A program made the position numbers and the translations under genes. From the NCBI GenBank assembly GCA_012862575.1, contig BLSF01000002.1:1054001-1118000 (forward strand): a stretch of 64,000 bases of DNA. Reading direction: 5' to 3'. This document shows, in pieces, positions 3,320 through 58,486 of the stretch. The notes under the pieces are model-generated. The model did no database searches. It had not been told where the DNA came from and saw only the letters and a program-made list of their open reading frames with translations. This DNA comes from Parietichytrium sp. I65-24A (Eukaryota > Sar > Bigyra > Thraustochytrida > Thraustochytriidae). Within the stretch, counting starts at the first letter, position 1. Each line of letters opens with the position of its first letter.

Positions 3320-3439
3320 AAGCTGCGCTTTTTGTCACACCTTTGCGCCAATGTTTCATCAATTTTTTTTTCCAATATGCACGTTTGTGTGCAAGGCCCA
3401 GGTGTGCCTCATTTTATTTTAATTTTTTTCGCTCCGAAG

Positions 3440-3445
3440 AATAAA
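3440..3445 (+). terminator. Candidate poly(A) hexamer of the WD40 gene
   Basis: AATAAA lies 121 nt after the WD40 stop codon in AT-rich DNA. Confidence 0.5.
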
Positions 3446-3486
3446 TTTTGGTAAACTTTTTCACTCTTCTTCACTCTTCCAATCAA

Positions 3487-7990: not shown

Positions 7991-9862
7991 TCAGATCCAT
8001 GCAAACACTTGATTCTTCGACTGAGTGCCGCGCCCACGACGTTTGGACGCTGAGCCATCGGTCGCAACGGAATCCGACTTGGTTTTGCGTGTAGACCGTT
8101 TCGGCGACGATGCTCCGCGTTTCTTAGATGCAGGTTCTTCTATTTCATCCGCAGATCCTCTGTCGCCTTCGCTCGGCTTCGAGCGTTGTGGGCGTCCTGC
8201 ACGCCGTTTCGGCAGCTCGGCTACCTCAGCCGGCTGCTCAGCTTTGGTTCTTGCAGCTCGGCCACGTCTTTTGGGCGAAGATTCTGGTGCTGCTTGAGGC
8301 ATGATAGCGATCCCCTCGACCACCAAACCTGCACTATCCTGATCAGATGCGAAGCCGGACACATCGTGGTCCAGCATCATGCTTTCTCCAAGCGAAGCAC
8401 CGTCGTTTAAAAGGTCGTCATCGTGGTGCTTTTGTTTAGGAGAACGTGAGCTCTTCTTGTCTTTTGAAAGTACATCGTTGTCCTCTTGTTCCTCCTCCGG
8501 GATGGCGGATTTTCGGGGACGGCCGCGCTTCTTTGGAATCTTGGCAAGCTCGATCTCCTCGGGCGTCCTCACTTTGGGAGGACGACCGCGCCGTTTTTTC
8601 ACGGCAGACTCTTGCGAGTCAACATCTGGCTTTGGTTTCGGAGGGCGGCCGCGCTTTTTCGGCACCTTGCTCTCTTCCGCCACATCGGGCTTGGGCTTAG
8701 GTGGGCGCCCTCGTTTTTTGGGAACTTTTGGCTCCGGGTTCTCGGGTTTCGGCTTGCGAGGACGACCGCGTTTTTTTGGCTGCTTCTCTTCTTCGGATAA
8801 CTCCGGTTTGGGTTTTGGTGGACGGCCACGGCGCTTGGGCTTCTCAGAGTCCGACAATATCTCCATCGGGCCCGGGCTCTCTTTGCCTAGCTCGGTATCG
8901 CTGAGGTCACTGGTTTCGACCTCGTGGTAGCGCCCTTTTGCTCTCGGTGCTCGCCCGACCTCCTCCACAGCATCATCCGGGAGCTGCTGCAAGGCAGGAA
9001 CGAAGGCGGTGGTGCGGCCTCCGATTTGCTGAAATTCGATGCTGTGGCCGTCGATGCTGGCGTCCTTGTTCTTGCCCCAGCGATGATGAAAAAGCCAGTC
9101 CGACGGGTATTCCTTGTCCTCTTTGAGCGACTTGCAGGCCACGTCCACGACATATAAGATCTTGTCGTGAACAACGTCGCACGCCTCGCGAGAGAGAGCT
9201 CTGCAGGGTATCTCGGGGTGCACGCGCGCTTGATACGCGATCTCGTCCGCCATCCAGTTGCCGATGCCGCAGACCACCTTGTTTTGATCTAACAGCACAG
9301 CCTTCAGCGGAGCCCTGTAAGACGTGAGCTTGGTGAAGAACGACTCTTGGTCCGGCATGGCCAGCAGTGGATCTGGCGCGAGGTCGCGTATGGGCGATTC
9401 GTTGATCGGGTCGGCGCGAAACTTGATTTTCCCCAGGCGCCTTGGGTCGCAGAACGCCACCCGCGTGTCATCCGAGAAGATGAACTCGCACTTGAGGAAC
9501 TTTGGCGGCCATTGCGACGGGTCCTCCACGGCCAGCCGCTTGTACTTGCTGATGCTCGCCATGCCCTTGACGTGAAACGCCCCAGTCATACCCTTGTGGA
9601 TCAGCATGTGCGTCTCCGGGATTTTCCCAGCTGGCCCGCGCCCCAGCTCCCACCACAGCTGTTTCCCGCGACGATGCACCGCCATCACCAGGCACCCCAC
9701 AAGGGCGCTCTTCAGCGAGTCCAGCGTCGGCACGCTCGACAGCTCAAACACTTTGTCGTCCACTTTGCCTCCATCCCCGCACCCCACGTCCACGATCTCC
9801 TTCCCCGCCAGCAGGATCTCCAGCTCGCGCCGCGTGTGCTCCACCTCCGGCAGCTCCGGCAT
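7991..9862 (-). CDS. FPG: Formamidopyrimidine-DNA glycosylase (Fpg/Nei family) with AT-hook tail
   Basis: A single-exon gene of 623 aa. The start is fixed by the invariant N-terminus MPELPEVE: after Met removal the Pro is the catalytic nucleophile and the following Glu the general acid. The conserved Lys lies in RRGKQLWWEL, the helix-two-turn-helix in VVCGIGNWMADEIA (residues ~205-220). The usual Cys4 zinc finger is replaced by the plant/fungal zincless form (IGGRTTAFVP, residues ~290). These enzymes excise oxidised purines such as FapyG and 8-oxoG and then cleave the AP site by beta/delta elimination. Residues ~345-450 carry six AT-hook cores (RGRP followed by P/R-K), and degenerate RGR/GRP copies continue to the C-terminus. 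The tail of ~320 residues roughly doubles the family's length and should give AT-rich or minor-groove DNA affinity in the nucleus. Confidence 0.95.
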   Translation of the reverse strand: MPELPEVEHTRRELEILLAGKEIVDVGCGDGGKVDDKVFELSSVPTLDSLKSALVGCLVMAVHRRGKQLWWELGRGPAGKIPETHMLIHKGMTGAFHVKGMASISKYKRLAVEDPSQWPPKFLKCEFIFSDDTRVAFCDPRRLGKIKFRADPINESPIRDLAPDPLLAMPDQESFFTKLTSYRAPLKAVLLDQNKVVCGIGNWMADEIAYQARVHPEIPCRALSREACDVVHDKILYVVDVACKSLKEDKEYPSDWLFHHRWGKNKDASIDGHSIEFQQIGGRTTAFVPALQQLPDDAVEEVGRAPRAKGRYHEVETSDLSDTELGKESPGPMEILSDSEKPKRRGRPPKPKPELSEEEKQPKKRGRPRKPKPENPEPKVPKKRGRPPKPKPDVAEESKVPKKRGRPPKPKPDVDSQESAVKKRRGRPPKVRTPEEIELAKIPKKRGRPRKSAIPEEEQEDNDVLSKDKKSSRSPKQKHHDDDLLNDGASLGESMMLDHDVSGFASDQDSAGLVVEGIAIMPQAAPESSPKRRGRAARTKAEQPAEVAELPKRRAGRPQRSKPSEGDRGSADEIEEPASKKRGASSPKRSTRKTKSDSVATDGSASKRRGRGTQSKNQVFAWI

Positions 9863-28149: not shown

Positions 28150-28155
28150 TTTATT
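28150..28155 (-). terminator. AATAAA overlapping the stop codon of the phosphatase fusion
   Basis: The last codon CAA plus stop TAA plus the next A form AATAAA. The next gene on this strand (mPGES2-like) has the same arrangement. Confidence 0.5.
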
Positions 28156-31100
28156 GTTGCACCAACATTGGTGAGGAGCCTTGTCTCTGAATGCGCTTGA
28201 TGTGATTCATTACCTTGTCGTACTGCTGTACCAGCCATTGATCCTTGCATTTCGCAGCGAAGACGAGGTAATCCTCAAACCCAATCTTACCGTCCATGTC
28301 AACATCGACGTAATTGATGCAGAGCTCGGCCTCAGATCTCTGCACAGCAGAGCCTTCTTCGGCGCTCCACTGTACGAGATCCTCGGCTGTGACAAAGTTG
28401 CTTCCGGTAGTATCGATGAACAAGAAGAGCGTCTGAAGTCCCACGAGCTCGGACGGTGTGAAAGTAATTGCGTCACCAGTTCCCTCGCCGTCTTTGGCAA
28501 TATCTGGCGTAAGCTTTCCTTCCGAGCCTGACCTGTTCTTGATGAGGGACTGGCGCTTCTTCCCGTCTTGCAAACGAACCTTCTCAGGAAGTTGCAGCGT
28601 GGTTGGATTCAATTTGCTTTGCGCCTCCTTCATCTTCTCCTCCACCACCATAGGATTCATCTCATTGATTCCGTCTTGTGCAGCGGCTTCGGTGTACTTC
28701 TTGTTCACCTTCTTCTTCTTCTTGAGCTTGCCCGCAGGAGTGCCTTTCTTTCCAGCACTGGAATCGCTGGCAGCGCCAGAGTCTTCGTCAAACCCAAGTA
28801 AATGCCCTGCTTTCCAATTACTCTTCTTGTTCAACTTCTTCTCGCCAGCTTCTGGCTCGCTTTGCGGTTCATCCGTCATCTTGCGTGGAGGCAATGGCGG
28901 TGCCATCTTCTTCTTCTGCAATCGCGGTTGTGTGGAAGCCATGACCTTGCTGCGATCCAGGCTCCCGTGCTTGCTACGATTGATATCCCGCCGAATATCT
29001 CTAGCAGCCTCTTCCTCGCCAAGCTCGAGGGCTTTCTTGATGAAGGAAGTAAAGGTAGTAGGCATGTATGGGCACATGGTCTCGATGCGATCGGTCTGCC
29101 GTTCCTGCTCGTTGTCAAGCTGTACCGGGTCGGGGTGCGCCACGGCTGTGAATTGCACGGGTTCGAGGAGCTGTATAGGGCGAATGCCATTGCCTTTTCG
29201 AACCTTGCGGCCCGGGGGCTTGTTGTGAATACGAATGACGGCTGCTTTGTTTCCATAGCGCCCACAGTAGTTCGGGGCTGAGAAAACGGTGATCACTGGC
29301 GGAGTTACTTGTACTGTTGTGTCCGCCTTTGCCCCGCCGCTCAGATCTTGAAAGTGGTACAAATAACCTTCCTCTTGCACTTCGTGGGCGCGAATGATGC
29401 CGACCAATCCGTTGACAGCAAGAAATGACACCAGCGCGCGGAAACCATACCTGTAGGAACAACCGCGCTGCGGGTTGGGCAGAAAGTCGATGGAAAGAAA
29501 ATCGCTCAGACTCTGGTCGTGGCCATCCTCGTGATTGTCCTTGACCGGATCGCTCCACAACACATCGCAGAGAAAGCCGTTCATGCCCGGTTCTGCGAAC
29601 CTGTCAAACTCGATGAACTGGTTCAAACTCTGGACGTGCGGGCTGATGCCGCCGTGAAGAGCGAGGAACTTGCCCGCTGGAGTTTGGACAGTGGCGCCAA
29701 TGGGCATGGCTTGAAACACTTCACAGGCGCGATTGTAGACCACGCGGCCGTACTTTTTCACGCACTCGTCCTTAAAACCAAAGAACGAGGAGACTGTTCT
29801 AGCTTCGTGATTCCCTCGCAACAACCAGACGTGGCCGGGGTACTTGGCCTTCAGGGCTAGGAGGTAGAAGAGCACTTCACATCCCCAGTCACCACGATCG
29901 ATGTAGTCTCCGAGAAACAAGTACGACGTCTTCCCTTTGCCTTTTCCTGGAGCTCCGTTCAGGCGAACCAAGTTGCGCAAGTCATAGTACTGGCCATGGA
30001 TATCGCCCACAACGGTGACAGAGCCAAGGGCGGAGGTGTCCAGCTGCAAGAGATTAGGCTCCTTTCGCATAACACTGTCAGCGCGGGTGATTATTGCTTT
30101 GGCTTCATCGTGCGACAAAATTTCTTGGTCGTCCAGGCGCTTTGCGAGAGCCTCGGGGTCGATTGGCTTCATCGAAACGGTTTGCTGCTTGTCGATGTAC
30201 GCCTGCTTAAATTTGGCGATGTTTGCTTTAGAAATAAGCTGTTTCGCGTCTTCTTCCTCAGCATTTACGAATCTGGAGCGAGCGTAATAATATCCCCTGT
30301 CAAGTGAACGGCGTCTTTGTGGCTTCTTCCCGCCCTTTTCGGAGCCGGAGAGCGAGTCTTTGCGGGAGTTGGTTTCCTCTTCATCAAACATTTTTTTCAG
30401 ACCGGTAGGAAGCATCATGGACCTTGGCCGCGATTTGCCCGACCCTTCCCCACTCACAGAGGCGGCAGAATTTCCAGCGCCGTGAAGGTGTGGGTCATTG
30501 GCAGTCGAGGCCAAGAACGCCTGCAGCTTGCTTCCATTGGAAATGGGGCGCTCCTTTGCGGGCGCCGACTGCTTTGCAGCCTCCTGTTCCGCTTCTGGAG
30601 GAGGCGCGTACGAATCGTCCGTCTCATATCCGTCCTCTCCGTCTGCGAAGGTAGGAAGCGATGATATGTCAAAAATTTTGCAAGATTTCAAGGTCAGCTT
30701 CTTGTTGGAGACCAACACCCGCGACACAGCAGCCTTCGCGGGGGTATCGGGGTCTTGCAAATCCGAGCGCAGGTCATTCAGCCAGTCCACAATATCATCG
30801 GCGGCCGGCCGGTTAAGGCGAATCGGTGAGCAGCATTGCACACAGAGTTCCACCAACGAGGAGGGAACTCCAAGGCCCTTTGCGCCAAGGAGCCCACGAA
30901 TTTCCTCGTCAACGGCATCCTGCATCTCCTCGAGTTTGTCATATCGCTGTTTCTCCTCGGCTTTGATTGCGGCGCGCAGCTTGGGACAGGTAATGGCAGT
31001 GAGCAACTTGCCAACGGCAAGCTCGAGGATGACTAACCCAACACCCAAGACATCCCCCTGCATCTTTGACTCGCGAGCATCCGACTGCATCTCAGCTTTC

Positions 31101-32068
31101 GTCAGAGGCCCGATCGTCTTGCAGGACTTTAAATAGCCTCGCAGGTTGTCGTCGAGAAGAAGGTTCTCTGATCGAAGCGAGCCGTGTACGTAATTGACGT
31201 TGTGAAGGCGGCCGACATACTTTGCTGCGTCTAACACGAAGTCCACGCGGATGGGCCAACCCAGATTAAGTTTCCCTGCATTGAGGACAATGTCAGATAC
31301 CGACCAAAAGAGCTCCGGGGTGACGCCTGTTCCATCGTTGGAAAGCCCAGGAATCTCGTAGAAGCCTTTGGCCTTCTTGCGGCGCACTGGCTTCCCAAAA
31401 ACGCCTGGCCGGGTCCAGTAGCTTGGCGCTTCGCTTGGGGGAGAAGGGCGGTTGAGCTGCTCCAGCAAGAAGAGCTTGCGTGCCATTTGCATAGTTGATC
31501 CACCTTTGGAGAGTACATCGTAGACTGCCTCTTTTGTTGCAGTGTTGTCGCGCCACGTGTTCGGATTTGAAAACTCAAACTCTGCATCTAGTTCGTCATC
31601 GTCGAAAACTCTCCTGCCAAAAACCTCCTCAAAAGAGGTCTGCGAGTAAGTCTTGGAAGCGTGGCTCGCACTGTCCACGTCAAGGTCGACCTCCTCATCG
31701 TCATCGTCAGCATCAGTAAAGTCCTCCGTGTTACTTGCGCTGCTCGCAACTGACTTTGAGTCCACCGATTTTCTCCCGAGAATGTTGCGGAACGACAGTC
31801 TCGACCCTTTCTTAGGGCCGCTTCCTTTGCTCGTCTTGCTTCCTTTGGAGCTCCGCGTCTGCGAGGTCACTGACTCTGACTCTAGCTCGTCATCAAACAT
31901 GCTCCAATCCACCGCGTCGCTGTTCGCCTTCACGCCGAACAGATCATCGTAGCTCGCAAAGCTCACCCCCTCCCCGTTCGACTCCGCCCTCTTCTTCCCG
32001 TACTCCTTGTACAAATCCGTCGGATTCTTCTTGTCCTTCTTGTCCTTCTTCTTATTCAGCCTCCTCAT
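28151..32068 (-). CDS. Pseudokinase / calcineurin-like Ser/Thr phosphatase / EF-hand fusion
   Basis: 1305 aa from the ATG at 32068; upstream frame is repeat-derived and lacks ATG. Residues 1-200 are Lys/Ser/Asp-rich. Residues ~250-400 resemble a kinase C-lobe, but the catalytic loop reads HGSLRSEN (Asp of HRD lost), no DFG is present and the N-lobe is not recognisable, so it is a pseudokinase. Residues ~660-1000 are a complete PPP phosphatase: GDIHGQYYDL, GDYIDRGDWG, RGNHEAR, LHGGISP, RGCSYRYGF, RAHEVQEEGY and SAPNYCGRYGNKAAV. The last blocks resemble calcineurin A. A Lys-rich linker leads to two C-terminal EF-hands (DTTGSNFVTAED, imperfect; DVDMDGKIGFED, good). Calcineurin normally borrows EF-hands from its B subunit; here they are in cis, as in PPEF/RdgC. 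It is probably a Ca2+-regulated protein phosphatase with a scaffold-type pseudokinase. Confidence 0.9.
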   Translation of the reverse strand: MRRLNKKKDKKDKKNPTDLYKEYGKKRAESNGEGVSFASYDDLFGVKANSDAVDWSMFDDELESESVTSQTRSSKGSKTSKGSGPKKGSRLSFRNILGRKSVDSKSVASSASNTEDFTDADDDDEEVDLDVDSASHASKTYSQTSFEEVFGRRVFDDDELDAEFEFSNPNTWRDNTATKEAVYDVLSKGGSTMQMARKLFLLEQLNRPSPPSEAPSYWTRPGVFGKPVRRKKAKGFYEIPGLSNDGTGVTPELFWSVSDIVLNAGKLNLGWPIRVDFVLDAAKYVGRLHNVNYVHGSLRSENLLLDDNLRGYLKSCKTIGPLTKAEMQSDARESKMQGDVLGVGLVILELAVGKLLTAITCPKLRAAIKAEEKQRYDKLEEMQDAVDEEIRGLLGAKGLGVPSSLVELCVQCCSPIRLNRPAADDIVDWLNDLRSDLQDPDTPAKAAVSRVLVSNKKLTLKSCKIFDISSLPTFADGEDGYETDDSYAPPPEAEQEAAKQSAPAKERPISNGSKLQAFLASTANDPHLHGAGNSAASVSGEGSGKSRPRSMMLPTGLKKMFDEEETNSRKDSLSGSEKGGKKPQRRRSLDRGYYYARSRFVNAEEEDAKQLISKANIAKFKQAYIDKQQTVSMKPIDPEALAKRLDDQEILSHDEAKAIITRADSVMRKEPNLLQLDTSALGSVTVVGDIHGQYYDLRNLVRLNGAPGKGKGKTSYLFLGDYIDRGDWGCEVLFYLLALKAKYPGHVWLLRGNHEARTVSSFFGFKDECVKKYGRVVYNRACEVFQAMPIGATVQTPAGKFLALHGGISPHVQSLNQFIEFDRFAEPGMNGFLCDVLWSDPVKDNHEDGHDQSLSDFLSIDFLPNPQRGCSYRYGFRALVSFLAVNGLVGIIRAHEVQEEGYLYHFQDLSGGAKADTTVQVTPPVITVFSAPNYCGRYGNKAAVIRIHNKPPGRKVRKGNGIRPIQLLEPVQFTAVAHPDPVQLDNEQERQTDRIETMCPYMPTTFTSFIKKALELGEEEAARDIRRDINRSKHGSLDRSKVMASTQPRLQKKKMAPPLPPRKMTDEPQSEPEAGEKKLNKKSNWKAGHLLGFDEDSGAASDSSAGKKGTPAGKLKKKKKVNKKYTEAAAQDGINEMNPMVVEEKMKEAQSKLNPTTLQLPEKVRLQDGKKRQSLIKNRSGSEGKLTPDIAKDGEGTGDAITFTPSELVGLQTLFLFIDTTGSNFVTAEDLVQWSAEEGSAVQRSEAELCINYVDVDMDGKIGFEDYLVFAAKCKDQWLVQQYDKVMNHIKRIQRQGSSPMLVQQ

Positions 32069-33654
32069 CTTGCCGCCTCTGCCCGCGCCCCGCCGTGCTC
32101 CCTTCCTGCCTTCTCTTCTCCTTTCTTTCGTTCTATGGTTCTTTCGTTCTTTCTTTCTTTCTTTCTTCGGCGCTTGCCGCGTCACGGATCGAGCGGAACG
32201 CCTCTGCGGAACCTGCCCTCTTCGCTCTCCGCTCTTTGCTGTCCGCTCTTTGCTGTCTCCCCGCGTCTCCCTGCTGGCGCAGCGAGGACTTGTGTGTGTG
32301 TGTGAAGTGCAAGGGAGAGAGAGAGAGTAGAGATGAGTAGAGAGTAGAGAGTAGAGAGAGTGTGTGAGACAGAGAGAGAGAATGACAGAGAGGGAGAGGG
32401 AGGGAAGGAGGGAGAGAGGGAGAGAGGAAAGAAGGGAGCTGCAATCTCCTCCAGAGCACACAATACTAGCACTGTAATAGTGCTGATGGTAAGAACGAGT
32501 AAGGTATCAGTACTCCGTACATGTGAGCAGTAGTGGTCTATAGACAGCATAGCTAGGCTACACAAGCACACTGCGCTCAAGCGCTGGGGTGCTAAAGGAG
32601 ATTATGCTGGCCTAGTGGGTTGGGTCTATAGTTTGATTTATGTATGAAGTAAGAGTGCCCCGCGGGCGGTACTGTTAAGGGTTATTATAAGACTGGCGAT
32701 ATGGGGATTATGGTGGAGTGGTATTTGGCCGTAAGGTTGTGGCGGTAATGTTTGTGCGAATACTGTACTAGTAATCAGTAGTTTGAAAGCACATTGTGCA
32801 CATGCACACTCTCATTAGCCGTGCGTCTAGCGGCCCAGTGAGTCGGTGGCCAGTTTCAATCCGAAAAATGATTCTATGATCACCGAGTGCTTGGACAGTT
32901 TGGACCATGCTTTGGACACGAAAAGTGACGGGGGAGCACAGGTGAGAATTGAGACAACTTATGACAACTTGAAGCTTGGCAAACTTTTGCCACGGCAATC
33001 TCGTTCAGAGTAATGGGTACGGAGTACCAGCACACATCCCGCACGCGGCGCTCGGGCCTTTTCCTAAACTTCGCTTTGCCGCTCTTAAGGCTATGCATAT
33101 CACGCACACTAATAATGGACAAATGGGCGGTGGTGTCGTTGGGTGCGGAATGTAGGAACGTGGAGCGCTCCCGTTCGACTCTTTTGTTTTTGCGAGCTTG
33201 CTTTACAATCAACCGAGCGCAGGTAGTCTGCTTCTCATTTTGTTGGACATGCCGATTTCTTTCCACACTTTCATGAACATGATTCACCGTCAGAAAAACT
33301 TGTGACGGTGTGTGACGAAATCGCGGTCAACGTGGAGAGTTCCTGTTCAGTGACAGCGCATATTTCATGTTCTATGCTTTTGAACATGTTCGAATGAGTA
33401 TGGGCACTCGACGGCTAACGCTCGCATACCGCAGCAAAAGCAATTAGCCGGCGCACAGCAGGAATAAAGCAGAATAGAACTTTCGAGTATGCCATTTTCT
33501 CTTGTCATTTTTTAAAATAAAGTGTGAACGATTGGTCAATGGCGATGTGTATTGACAAAGACGAGCGGGACAGAATCAGAATTCAGAAGCAATTGAGCGC
33601 ACGAAACGCAGATAATAAAAAGACGATGGACAGCCTTGACTAGAATTAGAAGAT
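32069..33654. other. Intergenic region (1.6 kb)
   Basis: Beyond the tracts at 32146-32426 nothing is recognised. A GAATTC motif lies at 33578-33592. ORFs here are short and lack domains. Confidence 0.55.
32146..32426. repeat. Oppositely oriented purine/pyrimidine tracts upstream of the phosphatase fusion
   Basis: A (CTTT)n run at 32146-32167 (purine on the gene's sense strand) is followed farther upstream by interrupted GAGA DNA on the plus strand at 32313-32426, the opposite polarity. This is the one clear exception to the window's sense-strand GA bias. Confidence 0.75.
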
Positions 33655-40259: not shown

Positions 40260-40504
40260 AATACAACAACTTATTGCAATCTGCTGATTTTGATGTTTTT
40301 TACGACCATAAAGAATGATGAGAGGAAGGGGGGCAAAACAGTCAGTTGCAAATGTGATTGTAATGGAGTCGTAGCAATGCACCTTGCACAAAGCAGGCAG
40401 AATAAAACTATTTTCTCAAAATTGAAACCCCTGAGTGGGATGCTGTCCAGGCGCGATGAAGGGTGAAAACGGTAGCGCACTGGACAAAAAAATCAGAGAT
40501 TTGC

Positions 40505-40568
40505 GCACTTTCAAAGTTGCCTGCGTCACTGTGTTGCAAGACGTGATTTTGCAGGCACTTGTCATTAG
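40505..40568 (-). promoter_or_regulatory. SECIS element (form II) in the selW 3'UTR
   Basis: Read on the minus strand, 84 nt after the selW stop: core 5' side AUGAC (40561-40565), a 10-bp helix AAGUGCCUGC with GCAGGCAACUU (one bulged A), an unpaired AAAA, a 4-bp ministem UCAC/GUGA closing a 13-nt loop, then the 3' core UGAA (40510-40513). The UGA...GA quartet, the ~11-nt spacing from quartet to the conserved AA, and the extra ministem are the defining features of a form II eukaryotic SECIS. It would recruit SBP2 and EFSec so that the selW UGA is read as selenocysteine. Confidence 0.88.
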
Positions 40569-40582
40569 GCGAGAAAGACATG

Positions 40583-40588
40583 TTTATT
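40583..40588 (-). terminator. AATAAA between selW stop and SECIS
   Basis: An AATAAA on the minus strand 17 nt upstream of the SECIS core. Cleavage at the usual distance would cut through the SECIS, so it is probably unused or makes a non-Sec transcript. Confidence 0.35.
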
Positions 40589-40649: not shown

Positions 40650-41053
40650 CTAAGGCTTTGAGTCACCAGCCGCGGCTGCGAGCGACTCGAGCGCCTTGCG
40701 GATCTGGTCGACGATAGCATCGACCTCATCTTGGCTGGTGCACTTGCCTTGGCCCCGAGTAGTTTTGGAGTGAATTAGGGCGCCGGTCTCTTTAATGACG
40801 ACCTCAAAGTTCCCCGTCTTTCCGGGGTCCTCCTTGCCGACCACGTTCAACTGCTCCCCAAACTCCTGATCAAGTTCACCCTTCAAATTCTTGAAGTACC
40901 TGTGGTACCCTGTGTGCTCAAACGAAAAATATCAGCGAAACACCATCCTCACCCGCCCACTCTCCTCTATCGATCGTGCGCGCGGCCAAGTGCCTGGTCA
41001 GTCGCGGACTTACCTCATCCGCCACAATACTGCACTTGCACTGTAAGCACCAT
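40650..41053 (-). CDS. selW: Selenoprotein W (Sec encoded by in-frame TGA; two exons)
   Basis: Exon 1 is 41014-41053 and exon 2 is 40650-40909; the 104-nt intron (40910-41013) starts GTAAGT and ends CACAG in phase 1. The product has 99 aa. It begins MVLTVQVQYCGG, then TGA (41015-41017), and after the splice continues GYHRYFKNLKGEL. The C-x-x-U redox motif at residues 10-13 sits where animal SelW has YCGAUGY, and the rest (NFEVVI, GALIHSK, a C-terminal helix) fits the thioredoxin-like Rdx fold. Reading TGA as stop leaves a 12-residue peptide, so normal ORF finding misses the gene; the 3' exon alone begins without ATG. A form II SECIS lies in the 3'UTR. SelW is a small cytosolic redox protein. 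The gene is downstream of the ATP-grasp gene on the same strand and convergent with cullin. Confidence 0.93.
40910..41013 (-). other. Intron of selW
   Basis: 104 nt, GTAAGT donor two bases after the Sec codon and CACACAG acceptor, phase 1. The joined codon is G+GG (Gly), giving the family-conserved Gly-Tyr after Sec. Confidence 0.9.
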
Positions 41054-49071: not shown

Positions 49072-50350
49072 ATGGAGAAGCAGAAGGAGTACAAGTGGCA
49101 GGACACGAACCTGGCGCTGTTCGGGAGCGATATAGAAAAGAAGCTCAAGGAGACCGCAGCACAGAGCGAGGCGCAATGGAGGGGACTTGGGGACGACGAA
49201 GAGCTGCGCATCTGGCGCATTGAGAAGTTTGAGGTGATCCCTTGGCCGAAAAAGAAGTATGGTAGCTTTCACAAGGGCGACAGCTACATCATCTATCACT
49301 CTTACAAGAAGAACCCTGATCGCTCCGACGCTTTGGCGTACGATATCTTCTTCTGGATCGGAAACGAGTCTTCGCAGGACGAGTACGGGACCGCGGCCTA
49401 CAAAACGGTAGAGCGTAAGTTGACACATTTCTTGCTTTTGCCTGCGCTGTATTTGTCCCTAGCCTTACCATGAATCGCCTGTAGTGGATCACTATCTCAA
49501 GGACCGCGCCATTCAGCATCGCGAAGTCCAGGAACACGAAACGAAAGCTTTTCTCAGCCTGTTCCAGTCCACCGGGATCACGTACCTCGAAGGTGGCGTA
49601 GAATCCGGTTTCAACCATGTTGAGGAAGAGGTCTTTAGAACTGCATTGTTCCAGGTCAAAGGAGTCAAGGGCGCCCTCGTGCTCAACGAGGTCAAGCTTC
49701 GCCGCGACTCACTCAACTCTGGCGACGTTTTCGTGCTCGATCTCGGGCACACCATCTACCAATGGAACGGAAAGGAGTCCAACATGCACGAGAAGAATGC
49801 TGCCAAAAGCTTGGTGAGCAGTGTCGCTGGAAGCCGTGGCGGAAACGCGAAGTCGTACGTGTTGGATGAGGGCCAAGATTCAGAGGCTGTTGAATTTTGG
49901 GATGCAATTCCTGGTGAAAGAAAATTCCTTGGATTCACGGTGCGAACGTACAGTCCGAAAGGTGAGCTTGAAGGCGGAGAAGATGACCAAGTCAAAGCAT
50001 TCCGAAAGCTTCTCTACCGGCTCTCTGATGAATCCGGCTCCATTAAATTCGCCTCTCGAGCTAAGGCTTCACGAAAAGACAACAAGATCAATCGAAAGAA
50101 GCTTGAGTCCAAGGACGCCTTCGTACTTGACGATGGATTCAACATCTGGGTATGGATTGGAGAAGGGGCTTCCAGCTCTGAAAGAGGCCTGGCTATGTCA
50201 TATGCGATGAAATACATTACGAAGCAAAAGCGCCCGGCGTTCATGCCCATCACGGTTGTGAAAGAAGGCAGCGAACCTCCAAGGTTCACCGAAAACTTTG
50301 CGGAGCGCCCTGTTACTTGCTTTAGCTTTCTGGACGATATGTTGCATTAG
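49072..50350 (+). CDS. Severin/fragmin-like actin-binding protein (three gelsolin repeats, two exons)
   Basis: Exon 1 is 49072-49414 and exon 2 is 49485-50350, giving 402 aa. The 70-nt intron (49415-49484) begins GTAAGT and ends TGTAG, phase 1; joining C+TG gives Leu in TVELDHYLKDRAIQHREVQ, a gelsolin-family signature that crosses the junction. Three gelsolin repeats are visible: G1 (residues ~40-125; HKGDSYIIYHSY, FFWIGNESSQDEYGTAA), G2 (~150-240; VFVLDLGHTIYQWNG) and G3 (~300-395; DAFVLDDGFNIWVWIGEGA). Three-repeat members (severin, fragmin, CapG) sever and cap actin filaments in a Ca2+-dependent way in the cytosol. The N-terminal WQDTNLALFGSDIEKKLKE is shared with severins. Length is normal for the subgroup. 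Confidence 0.95.
49415..49484 (+). other. Intron of the severin-like gene
   Basis: 70 nt, GTAAGT donor and CTGTAG acceptor, phase 1. The conserved gelsolin sequence VEL-DHYL spans the junction, so the boundaries are secure. Confidence 0.93.
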
Positions 50351-51234: not shown

Positions 51235-51630
51235 TCTTCTGCGGAAGATGCGCTAAATCGACTCGTTGCGGAAGATGTGCTAAATCGATTCGTTGCGAAA
51301 GATGCGTTAGATTGACTCTTTGCGGAAGATGCGCTAAATCGACTCTTTAGAGATTTGGCCGCTTGGCCGACACCTCGCCCTCTTGCAAATCTTGTGTTTC
51401 CACCTCGTCGCTCCCGCCTTCTCTCACCTCTGCAAACGTTTCCCGTGTCTGCTCCGGTTCTTCTTTTTCTTCTGCGGAAGATGCGCTAAATCGACTCTTT
51501 GCGGAAGCTGCGCTAAATCGACTCGTTGCGGAAGATGCGCTAGATTGACTCTTTGCGGAAGATGTGCTAAATCGACTCTTTGCGGAAGATGCGCTAAATC
51601 GACTCGTTGCGGAAGATCCGCCAAGTAGAC
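51235..51630 (-). repeat. 27-bp coding minisatellite in paralogue A
   Basis: Two clusters (about 51237-51345 and 51475-51625) of a 27-bp unit, GACTCTTTGCGGAAGATGCG plus CTAAATC on the plus strand, encoding SSAKSRFSA-type 9-mers. Unit variants (CGTTGCG, GATTGAC) alternate between clusters, indicating that they expanded together with the larger block. Confidence 0.85.
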
Positions 51631-52573
51631 TCTTCAGAGATTTTGGCCGCTTGGCCGATACCTCGCCCTCCTGCAAATCTTGTGTTTGCAACTCGTCGCT
51701 CACGCCTTCTCTCACCTCTGCAAACGTTTCCCGTGTCTGCTCCGTTTCTTCTTTTTCTTCTGCAGAAGGTGCGCTTAAAAGATTCTGTAGGGCTAATTGT
51801 CGCTTGGCCAACACGTCGCTCTCCTGCGAATCTTGTGCTTCCACCACATCGCTCACAACTTCTCTCACCTTTTTAAACGTTTTCCAGATCCGCCTCCTAT
51901 TCTCAACACTTACTTGGAGTTTCTTGGGAAGTTTCTCTTGAATCTGATCGAACTCGCTTTCGTCCCCGTCAAATACATAAACGAGACCTGCGATCAGACT
52001 ATCCACCTCATTGAGATCGTCTTCCGACGAAAGATTGACTCTTCTGAGAGACTGCAATAATCGTAGCTTGACGATCACTTCCGCGCGTATCTCGAACAGC
52101 CTTCCGGCAGCCCCAATCTGCCGCTCACGGAAGGAGAGCGGAGATCCTTTGTTAAGATCTTGAAATGGTGCAGCCATTCTCATCGTATCAAGCATGTGCG
52201 ATAACTCTTCGCCCCGCAACCTGTTATAAATTCTTGCTTTTTCGAACTCCGCGTCGTCACTGCTGTCAAAAAAGCAAAGCATGCATCGCTGTATTCCGTA
52301 GTCCTCAATGTACTTGTTCAGGATGTCGAGCTCGTTTCTGTAATAGCTAAGAAGGCCATTCCACCTCGGATTCTTTTTCACAAGCTTCAACCGCGCTTTT
52401 GCATGTGTGCCGTATGTGAATGAAGGTAAGTTGAATCTACAAGCCCTGCATCCAGGGCACGGACTCGTACTGTCGATATGATATCGCAACGCTGCTTCAT
52501 AGTCCTTCCTGGAGATTTTCTTCGCAAGGTGGGCACCGAGAACGCGCCCATCAAAAGCAGTTCCACCACTCAT
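51347..52573 (-). CDS. Unknown-family protein, paralogue A (repeat-expanded, probably frameshifted)
   Basis: ATG at 52573 (MSGGTAFDGR), 408 codons to the stop at 51347. Residues 1-235 align with paralogue B at 55693-56748: a PCPGCRACRF Cys cluster, ELDILNKYIEDYGI, RIYNRLRGEELSHMLDTMR, SPLSFRERQIGAAGRLFEIR and a helical KLPKKLQVSVENRRRIW block. I recognise no known domain. The second half is expanded compared with B by repeats: a ~50-residue block (ETFAEVREG...QDLQEGEVSAKRP) present in several copies and, nested inside, 9-residue units such as SSAKSRFSA. The frame ends in the last block copy, where TTT replaces the TTTT found in its sister repeat; without that change the frame would run to the B-like C-terminus at 50808. 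Confidence 0.75.
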   Translation of the reverse strand: MSGGTAFDGRVLGAHLAKKISRKDYEAALRYHIDSTSPCPGCRACRFNLPSFTYGTHAKARLKLVKKNPRWNGLLSYYRNELDILNKYIEDYGIQRCMLCFFDSSDDAEFEKARIYNRLRGEELSHMLDTMRMAAPFQDLNKGSPLSFRERQIGAAGRLFEIRAEVIVKLRLLQSLRRVNLSSEDDLNEVDSLIAGLVYVFDGDESEFDQIQEKLPKKLQVSVENRRRIWKTFKKVREVVSDVVEAQDSQESDVLAKRQLALQNLLSAPSAEEKEETEQTRETFAEVREGVSDELQTQDLQEGEVSAKRPKSLKSLLGGSSATSRFSASSAKSRFSTSSAKSQSSASSATSRFSAASAKSRFSASSAEEKEEPEQTRETFAEVREGGSDEVETQDLQEGEVSAKRPNL

Positions 52574-55692: not shown

Positions 55693-56748
55693 CTACTGAT
55701 TGAGCTCTGATTCCTCGACCTCTCTCAAGAGATCCTCATCGAACTCAGGGATGAGTCCAATCGGGGCTTCATGTTCGTACTTCACCTTGGTGGCGACCAT
55801 CACTGACCCATTGGCGCCGCGAACCACTTCATGCGACATTGAAAGTCGAAAAAGCTTTCCCCTTCGGTACCTCCAAAGTTTTCCTTTCAAATCTTTCAAG
55901 CTCCACAATTTTTGGAGACGTGTTCGGATCGTTACTTTTCGCTCTTTAATTCTTTCCGCCTCTATAGATTCTGCAGAAGGCGCGCTAAAAAGATTCTTCA
56001 GGGCTTTTAGCCGCTTGGCCGACGCCTCGCTCTGTTGCGAGTTTTGTGCTTTCACCACGTCGCTCACGCCTTCTCTCACCTTTGCAAACGTTTCCCAGAT
56101 CTGCTTCCTTTTCTCAACACTTACTTGGAGTTTCTTGGGAAGCTTTTCTTGAATTCGACTAAAGTCGCTTTCGTCCCCATCGTATACGTAAGCGATACCT
56201 GCGATCAGATTATCCACCTCATTGAGATCGTCTTCCGAAGAAAGGTCAACGTCTTTGTGAGACTGCGCAACTCGAAGCTCGACGATCACTTCAGCGCGTA
56301 TCTCGAATAGCCTTCCGGCAGCCCCGACTTGCCGCTCACGGAAGGAGAGCGGAGACCCTCCGTTAAGATCCTGGAACGGTGCAGCGTATCTCAACGTGTC
56401 AAGCATGCGCGACATCTTTTCGCCCCGCAGCCTGTTATAAATTCTTCCTTTTTCGAATTTTTGGTCTCGATCGCTGCCGAAATAGCAAAGCATGGTTCGC
56501 TTTATTCCGTAGCTCTCAATGTGCTTGTTCATGATGTCAAGCTCCATGTTGTAGTACTCAAGAAGATTTTTCCACTCCGGATTCTTTTTCTTAAGCTTCT
56601 CCCGCGCTTTTGAGTGTTCGCTGCATTCAGGGCACGGATACGTGGTTGTGATATGGTATTGCATCGCTGCTTCGAGTTCCCCCTTGGTGATTTTATTCTC
56701 ATTGAAGGCACCGCGCATGCGGTCATCGAAAGTAGTTCCACCACTCAT
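55693..56748 (-). CDS. Unknown-family protein, paralogue B (intact)
   Basis: 351 aa from the ATG at 56748 (MSGGTTFDDR), chosen because paralogue A starts with the same MSGG at the equivalent position; the frame upstream has only a TTG. No known domain is recognised. Visible features are a CPECSEH cluster near residue 35, a predicted helical core (residues 50-220) with SPLSFRERQVGAAGRLFEIR as the best-conserved block against A, a charged linker (residues 220-270), a basic segment KDLKGKLWRYRRGKLFRLS and an acidic C-terminus (PEFDEDLLREVEESELNQ). No signal peptide or TM helix is seen. Conservation of frame against A, despite divergent flanks, argues that it codes for protein. It looks lineage-restricted. 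Confidence 0.8.
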   Translation of the reverse strand: MSGGTTFDDRMRGAFNENKITKGELEAAMQYHITTTYPCPECSEHSKAREKLKKKNPEWKNLLEYYNMELDIMNKHIESYGIKRTMLCYFGSDRDQKFEKGRIYNRLRGEKMSRMLDTLRYAAPFQDLNGGSPLSFRERQVGAAGRLFEIRAEVIVELRVAQSHKDVDLSSEDDLNEVDNLIAGIAYVYDGDESDFSRIQEKLPKKLQVSVEKRKQIWETFAKVREGVSDVVKAQNSQQSEASAKRLKALKNLFSAPSAESIEAERIKERKVTIRTRLQKLWSLKDLKGKLWRYRRGKLFRLSMSHEVVRGANGSVMVATKVKYEHEAPIGLIPEFDEDLLREVEESELNQ

Positions 56749-58486
56749 GCTTGCTCGAAATCTAAAATGCCTCTGCTTACCCTCGACCAAACTCCCTGCA
56801 GCTCGAGTTTTGGGTCTGCCCGGTCTTGGCGCATGGTTTGGTCTTCTCCGCGAGAAAATACAAAATCCACTTCACACGCTTAGGGCAAGAGTAGCTGTGC
56901 ACAAACAAGCTCCTATACACCACGCATACACATTTATACATGCCGAAACGTGCGCCGCTAATAGTACTCACAGTCAGTGCTTAGCACCACGACATAGTCA
57001 GTCAATCTATAGTTATGCTCTACACTAGTCATCCATACGCTCGGCACCCGGTGCACACCTCGCGTGAGGACTGGCTGACTGAGAGGGAATTTGGGGCTGT
57101 GAGGGGCTGAGTATCTGCTCATACATTTAACTCTGTGAGGCACAGGCAGCAAGCGTTTTGTCAAGACACAAATTGGACAAGGGACACCGCCATTTCGCCT
57201 TGTCAAGTGGGATCCACTCACTGCAGATAGAGTCACGGTACTCAAAGGCACACACGGTCATTCTTCTTTGTTGACAGTGAATAGCGGTGAGGCATGGTAA
57301 GGCATGAGATATCGTCACAAACTTGACCAACTTGACGGGATTGCGCTTGCAGCATCATGCTCGAGACACGCTTAGGGAACGTATACACTCTTAGCTCCTC
57401 GTCCGTCCTCGTGGCGTCCCACCTTGTCTCACAAAGCTTACGCTACCATATAACTGAAGCAGTATGTGTTGTGTCAAGGGATCCCTTGACACCCTCGACT
57501 TCGAGTTGCCAATGAGTTGCCCGCGCTAGTTTGGCGTTTATCCATTCCTTGAATTCCTTGACACGCCACCTTCCGTGTTTGTGTATTATTTGTTTCCGCT
57601 ATCGTTCGCAACCTCGTTTCTTCGCGGTGGCCGCGCATTCAAAGCATTAAGGATGCACACCCCCTAGGAGCGTCCCCTTTGGTGGTACTCGCAGTCAGTA
57701 CTCGTAATAGTACAGTACTCACACTCAGTACATTGTTTGAGAGCCCAGCCTCTGACGAGGCATCAACGTTCCAGAAAATCCAGGCGATTGTTGGTCTTAA
57801 TCGCAAAGGCAACCACGGCGGAGCATGCGGTCCAAAAATACGACTCTTATTTGTCGCCGTCGCAGATATCGCGCGCTAATTTTATATAAAATCGTGTAGT
57901 TGTGAATTTGTAACGCCAGTGATCGTTCACTAGAAAGAATTTCTGTGGCGGGCAGGCTTGCTGAGAAAGTAGATCCCATCGCGAAACATGACAAGGAATA
58001 CGCCTTTTGAGCACAACTTGGGTGATTGCAAACCTAATCAGGGTTCACAAAGATACGAGGCTTGACGGTTGTTCTCATTTTCAATCTATAACAGGAACTT
58101 GCAATCCAGTCTTCGGTAGGACTTCCAATCTTGAAACGACAAATTGTGCTTTGGTGAGAGTTGTGGCGCCGCCTGCAGATTGAAAAGTGTGCGCCACGGG
58201 TGGACGCCGAGCACATCCCGTCCGCAGAAGATCACAGAAGCATCAATCTGCGCGCTTTTACTGGTCGTTACTCGCAGCAAGAGTACCCGTTTCAGCGACA
58301 AGGATGCCCGCCGTACCAGTTGTGCTCGAAAATGGTATCCACGCGTGTTGCCCAGAAAATTAAGAGCTCTCCACCAAACTGTGAAATGGCACGTGGCACC
58401 ACTGCCCGCTCCCTACCTGGAATCGTGTCAACATAGCACTCGCCCCACTTGAGCACCAGATGAAAGTCCTCTCAGAAATTCTTCAC

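Follow-up and report, generated by a model that had tools for sequence, protein, structure and literature searches.

The 64-kb window analysed here, that is the whole stretch of 64,000 nucleotides from Parietichytrium sp. I65-24A, very probably encodes a selenoprotein W (SelW), apparently a typical representative of this well-known family. With high confidence we regard the locus as a eukaryotic SelW gene which contains selenocysteine (Sec) and has one intron in its coding region. The basis for this assignment is read from the sequence and consists of an open spliced frame, a family match, the position of a TGA codon and a SECIS-like core; from these features, Sec insertion and a redox function of the product are predicted. 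The region was re-read on both strands and the gene was found on the minus strand, with the following elements:

41014..41053, minus strand: SelW exon 1, 40 nt, consisting of ATG and 11 more sense codons (12 in total), TGA and one G
41015..41017, minus strand: TGA of codon 13, predicted to code for Sec, within CGGU and in the column of the 2npb active-site Cys
40910..41013, minus strand: SelW intron, 104 nt, GT-AG, with the borders GAG/GTAAGT ... CACACAG/GG
40650..40909, minus strand: SelW exon 2, ending with the stop codon TAG, indicated by the frame and by profile and structure matches
40583..40588, minus strand: AATAAA hexamer located 3' of the SelW stop codon and 5' of the SECIS core; no second AATAAA occurs in the first 400 nt of the 3' flank
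40502..40575, minus strand: putative SECIS element with an ATGAC / AAAA / TGAA core and helix III TCAC/GTGA, matching Rfam SECIS_1

Gene structure and splicing

Re-reading the sequence reproduced the architecture and the coordinates given by an earlier sequence-only reading, that is, an exon 1 of 40 nt with 12 residues plus TGA, an exon 2 without ATG (Met is absent from its residues) and an intron whose GTAAGT donor follows just after the Sec codon; the minus strand had not been named in that reading. The distance between UGA and splice junction had been described there in two ways: "within 2 nt" holds, but "two bases before" has to be corrected, as a single exon base (G) lies between them. 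An exon 1 with 40 coding nt that ends at an apparent stop, followed by an exon 2 without ATG, illustrates why short split genes are easily missed.

Splicing is predicted to join 41014 to 40909. The resulting frame has 300 nt, corresponding to 99 residues and the stop codon, and its sole internal TGA is at codon 13. The intron length is not a multiple of 3 and its retention would shift the frame. An in-frame TGA stop is located two codons 5' of the ATG; therefore, this ATG is the first possible start in exon 1 and no upstream extension exists there. In codon usage, which is a weak test here, the spliced frame came out on top of the six frames (0.24 vs 0.11 for the next one).

When all splice pairs at least 40 nt apart were enumerated in this region (4 GT donors, 12 AG acceptors), six of them kept the reading frame through to the TAG and contained no more than one internal stop; CGG-TGA-GY was produced by the described pair alone. 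Two of the six GT-AG pairs, with donors at offsets 23 and 28 inside exon 1, skip the TGA and read on without an internal stop, which would allow for a Sec-less product by alternative splicing. However, the donors concerned are GTATTG and GTGGCG, compared with GAG/GTAAGT at the main site, and the products would not carry the family-defining CxxU motif. Hence, we consider this explanation of the TGA extremely unlikely and retain the single intron described above.

A second intron can be deduced at 49415..49484 on the plus strand (70 nt, GTAAGT...TGTAG), since its removal joins two stretches which then read on as one frame. It belongs to a nearby gene that we named gelsolin-like by eye, and its donor, identical to that of the SelW intron, speaks in favour of the latter.

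Assignment to the selenoprotein W family

For the profile and structure searches, Cys was written at codon 13 in place of Sec. The spliced product then matched Pfam Rdx (E-value 9.4e-13, 48.6 bits, cut-off 22.6) as well as NCBIfam TIGR02174, which covers SelT, SelW and SelH (3.2e-14, 53 bits, cut-off 34.2). In the structure search, in which the nearest relative was chosen by E-value among solved structures, the best solved relative was SelW 2npb with an E-value of 5e-11, followed by 2ljk (C17orf37) at 0.12, the listing comprising five sequences within an E-value limit of 10. The entry 2npb is presumably mouse SelW with Sec and the first Cys replaced. A two-row alignment with it gave 40% identity and placed the TGA opposite its active-site Cys, a correspondence seen with this one relative. 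The N-terminal YCGGUGY (TGA as U) has the CxxU/CxxC-then-GY arrangement of Selenoprotein W within the Rdx family. Thus, profile scores above the cut-offs, CxxU followed by GY and a SelW as nearest solved relative all point to the same family, as the sequence-only reading had claimed; the alignment of the spliced 99-aa product to SelW/Rdx proteins, which it had proposed as a check, turned out in its favour. The similarity to vertebrate SELENOW (2npb) also extends to the TGxFEV and HSK blocks and to a SECIS in the 3'UTR, which is putative here. C17orf37, another Rdx protein and one with the same Rdx fold, likewise aligns with the motif and has Cys at the corresponding position, but it is the weaker match by far.

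On its own, the short motif is not diagnostic. At the DNA level, Y-C-G-G/A-TGA-G-Y was found in 12 stretches of viral_contigs, 8 of them distinct by translation, and in none of the 12 did the reading frames, judged by eye, show any likeness to SelW. Since the motif recurs in these non-SelW stretches, it proves nothing alone and the assignment depends on the family match. Such recurrence is what could be brought forward for a SelW frame that is open merely by chance. However, the profile matches reach E-values of 1e-12 to 1e-14 across most of the protein, and judged by these values the gene exceeds chance; the probability of a fortuitous frame appears negligible.

SECIS-like hairpin downstream of the stop codon

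A SECIS hairpin is likely to be located just 3' of the SelW stop. The SECIS-like structure begins about 75 nt after the stop codon and its core, at 40565..40510, reads ATGAC-AAGTGCCTGC-AAAA-TCAC...GTGA-C-GCAGGCAACTT-TGAA. In a covariance scan of 101 nt, Rfam SECIS_1 aligned over the full model (1-64 of 64) with ATGA, AAA and TGA in register, scoring 17.0 bits at an E-value of 0.41 for 4227 families. The motif of a SECIS is thus present, but the score stays below the curated gathering score of 35. A search over 1 kb did not list SECIS_1, and no SECIS_1 match at the gathering score was obtained in the 64-kb window. The expected helices appear in the minimum-energy fold, whose stability is not unusual (z -0.82): 42 of 200 shuffles fold at least as well. 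In view of the score and the unremarkable stability, the case for a SECIS is a joint one, made by motif, register, strand and position. To this extent, the SECIS element postulated by the sequence-only reading is supported.

A custom scan for SECIS cores, written after the site was seen, was compared with 20 first-order Markov resamplings. At a helix score of at least 9, two sites in total were found over the two strands of the window, one of them at SelW, against 0.1 per 64-kb strand in the resamplings. With the looser helix score of 7 there were five sites in the window and 1.85 per strand in the resamplings, so that the window differs clearly from them at the strict setting only. The second strict site, at 3474..3432, was rejected because SECIS_1 gave no hit there within an E-value limit of 10.

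The low SECIS_1 score also bears on a rival view, by which a SelW with Cys recently became a pseudogene or null allele when its TGT or TGC turned into TGA; one base change suffices for this. Against this view, neither the splice sites nor the rest of the frame is damaged, and a SECIS-shaped hairpin is present at the right place and on the right strand. Moreover, 80% of the algal SELENOW family members contain Sec, as stated in PMC7539508. We therefore regard a decayed Cys gene as very unlikely and keep to a Sec-containing SelW.

Between the end of the AATAAA hexamer and the SECIS core there are 17 nt. Among 17 ORFs checked, including the SelW gene, five have an AATAAA within 400 nt after the stop.

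Predicted selenocysteine insertion and the genetic code

In eukaryotic selenoproteins, Sec is inserted with the help of SECIS, SBP2, EFSec and Sec-tRNA. Accordingly worded for this gene, ribosomes would, after splicing, reach the UGA at SelW codon 13, and the hairpin in the 3'UTR would recruit a SECIS-binding protein together with the Sec elongation factor, which carries Sec-tRNA, leading to Sec insertion. The product would then be the full 99-residue thioredoxin-like CxxU oxidoreductase; failing Sec insertion, it would be a peptide of 12 residues.

A reassignment of TGA to a sense codon was considered and rejected. Sixteen long ORFs, called mechanically, end with TAA (8), TGA (4) or TAG (4), and the four ending with TGA, at 1553 (WD40), 7991, 10933 and 62538, all have Pfam matches. 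As TGA terminates 4 of the 16, it is not simply a sense codon here. ARAGORN found no tRNA genes in the 64-kb window. Taken as a Sec gene, the locus probably makes the host one more eukaryote using selenocysteine. A selenocysteine tRNA is reported for Hyphochytrium catenoides (PMC5795050) and selenoproteins are reported for Phytophthora (PMC5330540).

The junction next to the UGA and mRNA decay

The EJC is usually placed 20-24 nt upstream of a junction. With the junction 1 nt after the UGA, its EJC would therefore sit 5' of the UGA and be cleared by the ribosome. According to the mammalian rule for EJC-dependent nonsense-mediated decay (NMD), as given in PMC4911915, the UGA has to be 50-55 nt or more 5' of an exon junction; here, the distance to the only detected junction in the coding region is 1 nt. 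Consequently, NMD at the UGA should not be triggered by this junction. The sequence-only reading had noted that the closeness of UGA and junction bears on NMD; that remark has to be weakened, as the rule predicts no trigger. The SelW mRNA would be insensitive to EJC-dependent decay, unless an intron exists in the 3'UTR.

According to the same paper (PMC4911915), SEPW1 mRNA is among the most selenium-sensitive ones in Caco-2 cells, and canonical NMD rules are suggested not to be followed by selenoprotein mRNAs. EJC-independent NMD is mentioned, particularly for intron-poor organisms, in PMC8704476. It is conceivable, though in our estimate very unlikely, that selenium supply controls this gene without EJC-dependent decay, the junction sparing the mRNA whenever Sec is not inserted, and that early polyadenylation at the AATAAA removes the SECIS and leaves the 12-residue peptide. 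An intron placed 1 nt after the UGA provides a natural test of the interplay of introns and decay with UGA recoding outside animals. Our literature search returned no paper joining selenoprotein W, nonsense-mediated, intron and Sec codon.

Relatives in other organisms

Mammalian SelW has six exons, the first of which codes for 9 residues in most mammals and ends just before CxxU, and its SECIS lies in a separate last exon (PMC3316567). With six exons, there are junctions 3' of its UGA. In the gene described here, by contrast, the single intron detected in the coding region comes after CxxU. Among algae, the Sec-containing form of SELENOW is one of the most widely distributed selenoproteins, according to The algal selenoproteomes (PMC7539508), and the present gene agrees with this form.

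Searches with the single protein gave no relatives among 15 pattern stretches of viral_contigs and 116 of genome_contigs, and the two-row alignment gave none among 244 from genome_contigs and 136 from viral_contigs. There was no match in plasmids and phages.

Other features of the window

Two ORFs on the minus strand, 51347..52573 and 55693..56790, are paralogous to each other, with 62% identity over 301 aligned positions; neither was matched by a Pfam family within an E-value limit of 0.001. The long ORF 28151..32461 (minus strand) carries a metallophosphatase domain and EF-hands. Its N-terminal half looks kinase-like by eye, and no kinase family was matched at E up to 0.001. Finally, the ORF 7991..9862 (minus strand) codes for a DNA glycosylase of the Fpg/Nei type whose long tail repeats KRGRPPKPKP-like, AT-hook-like motifs.
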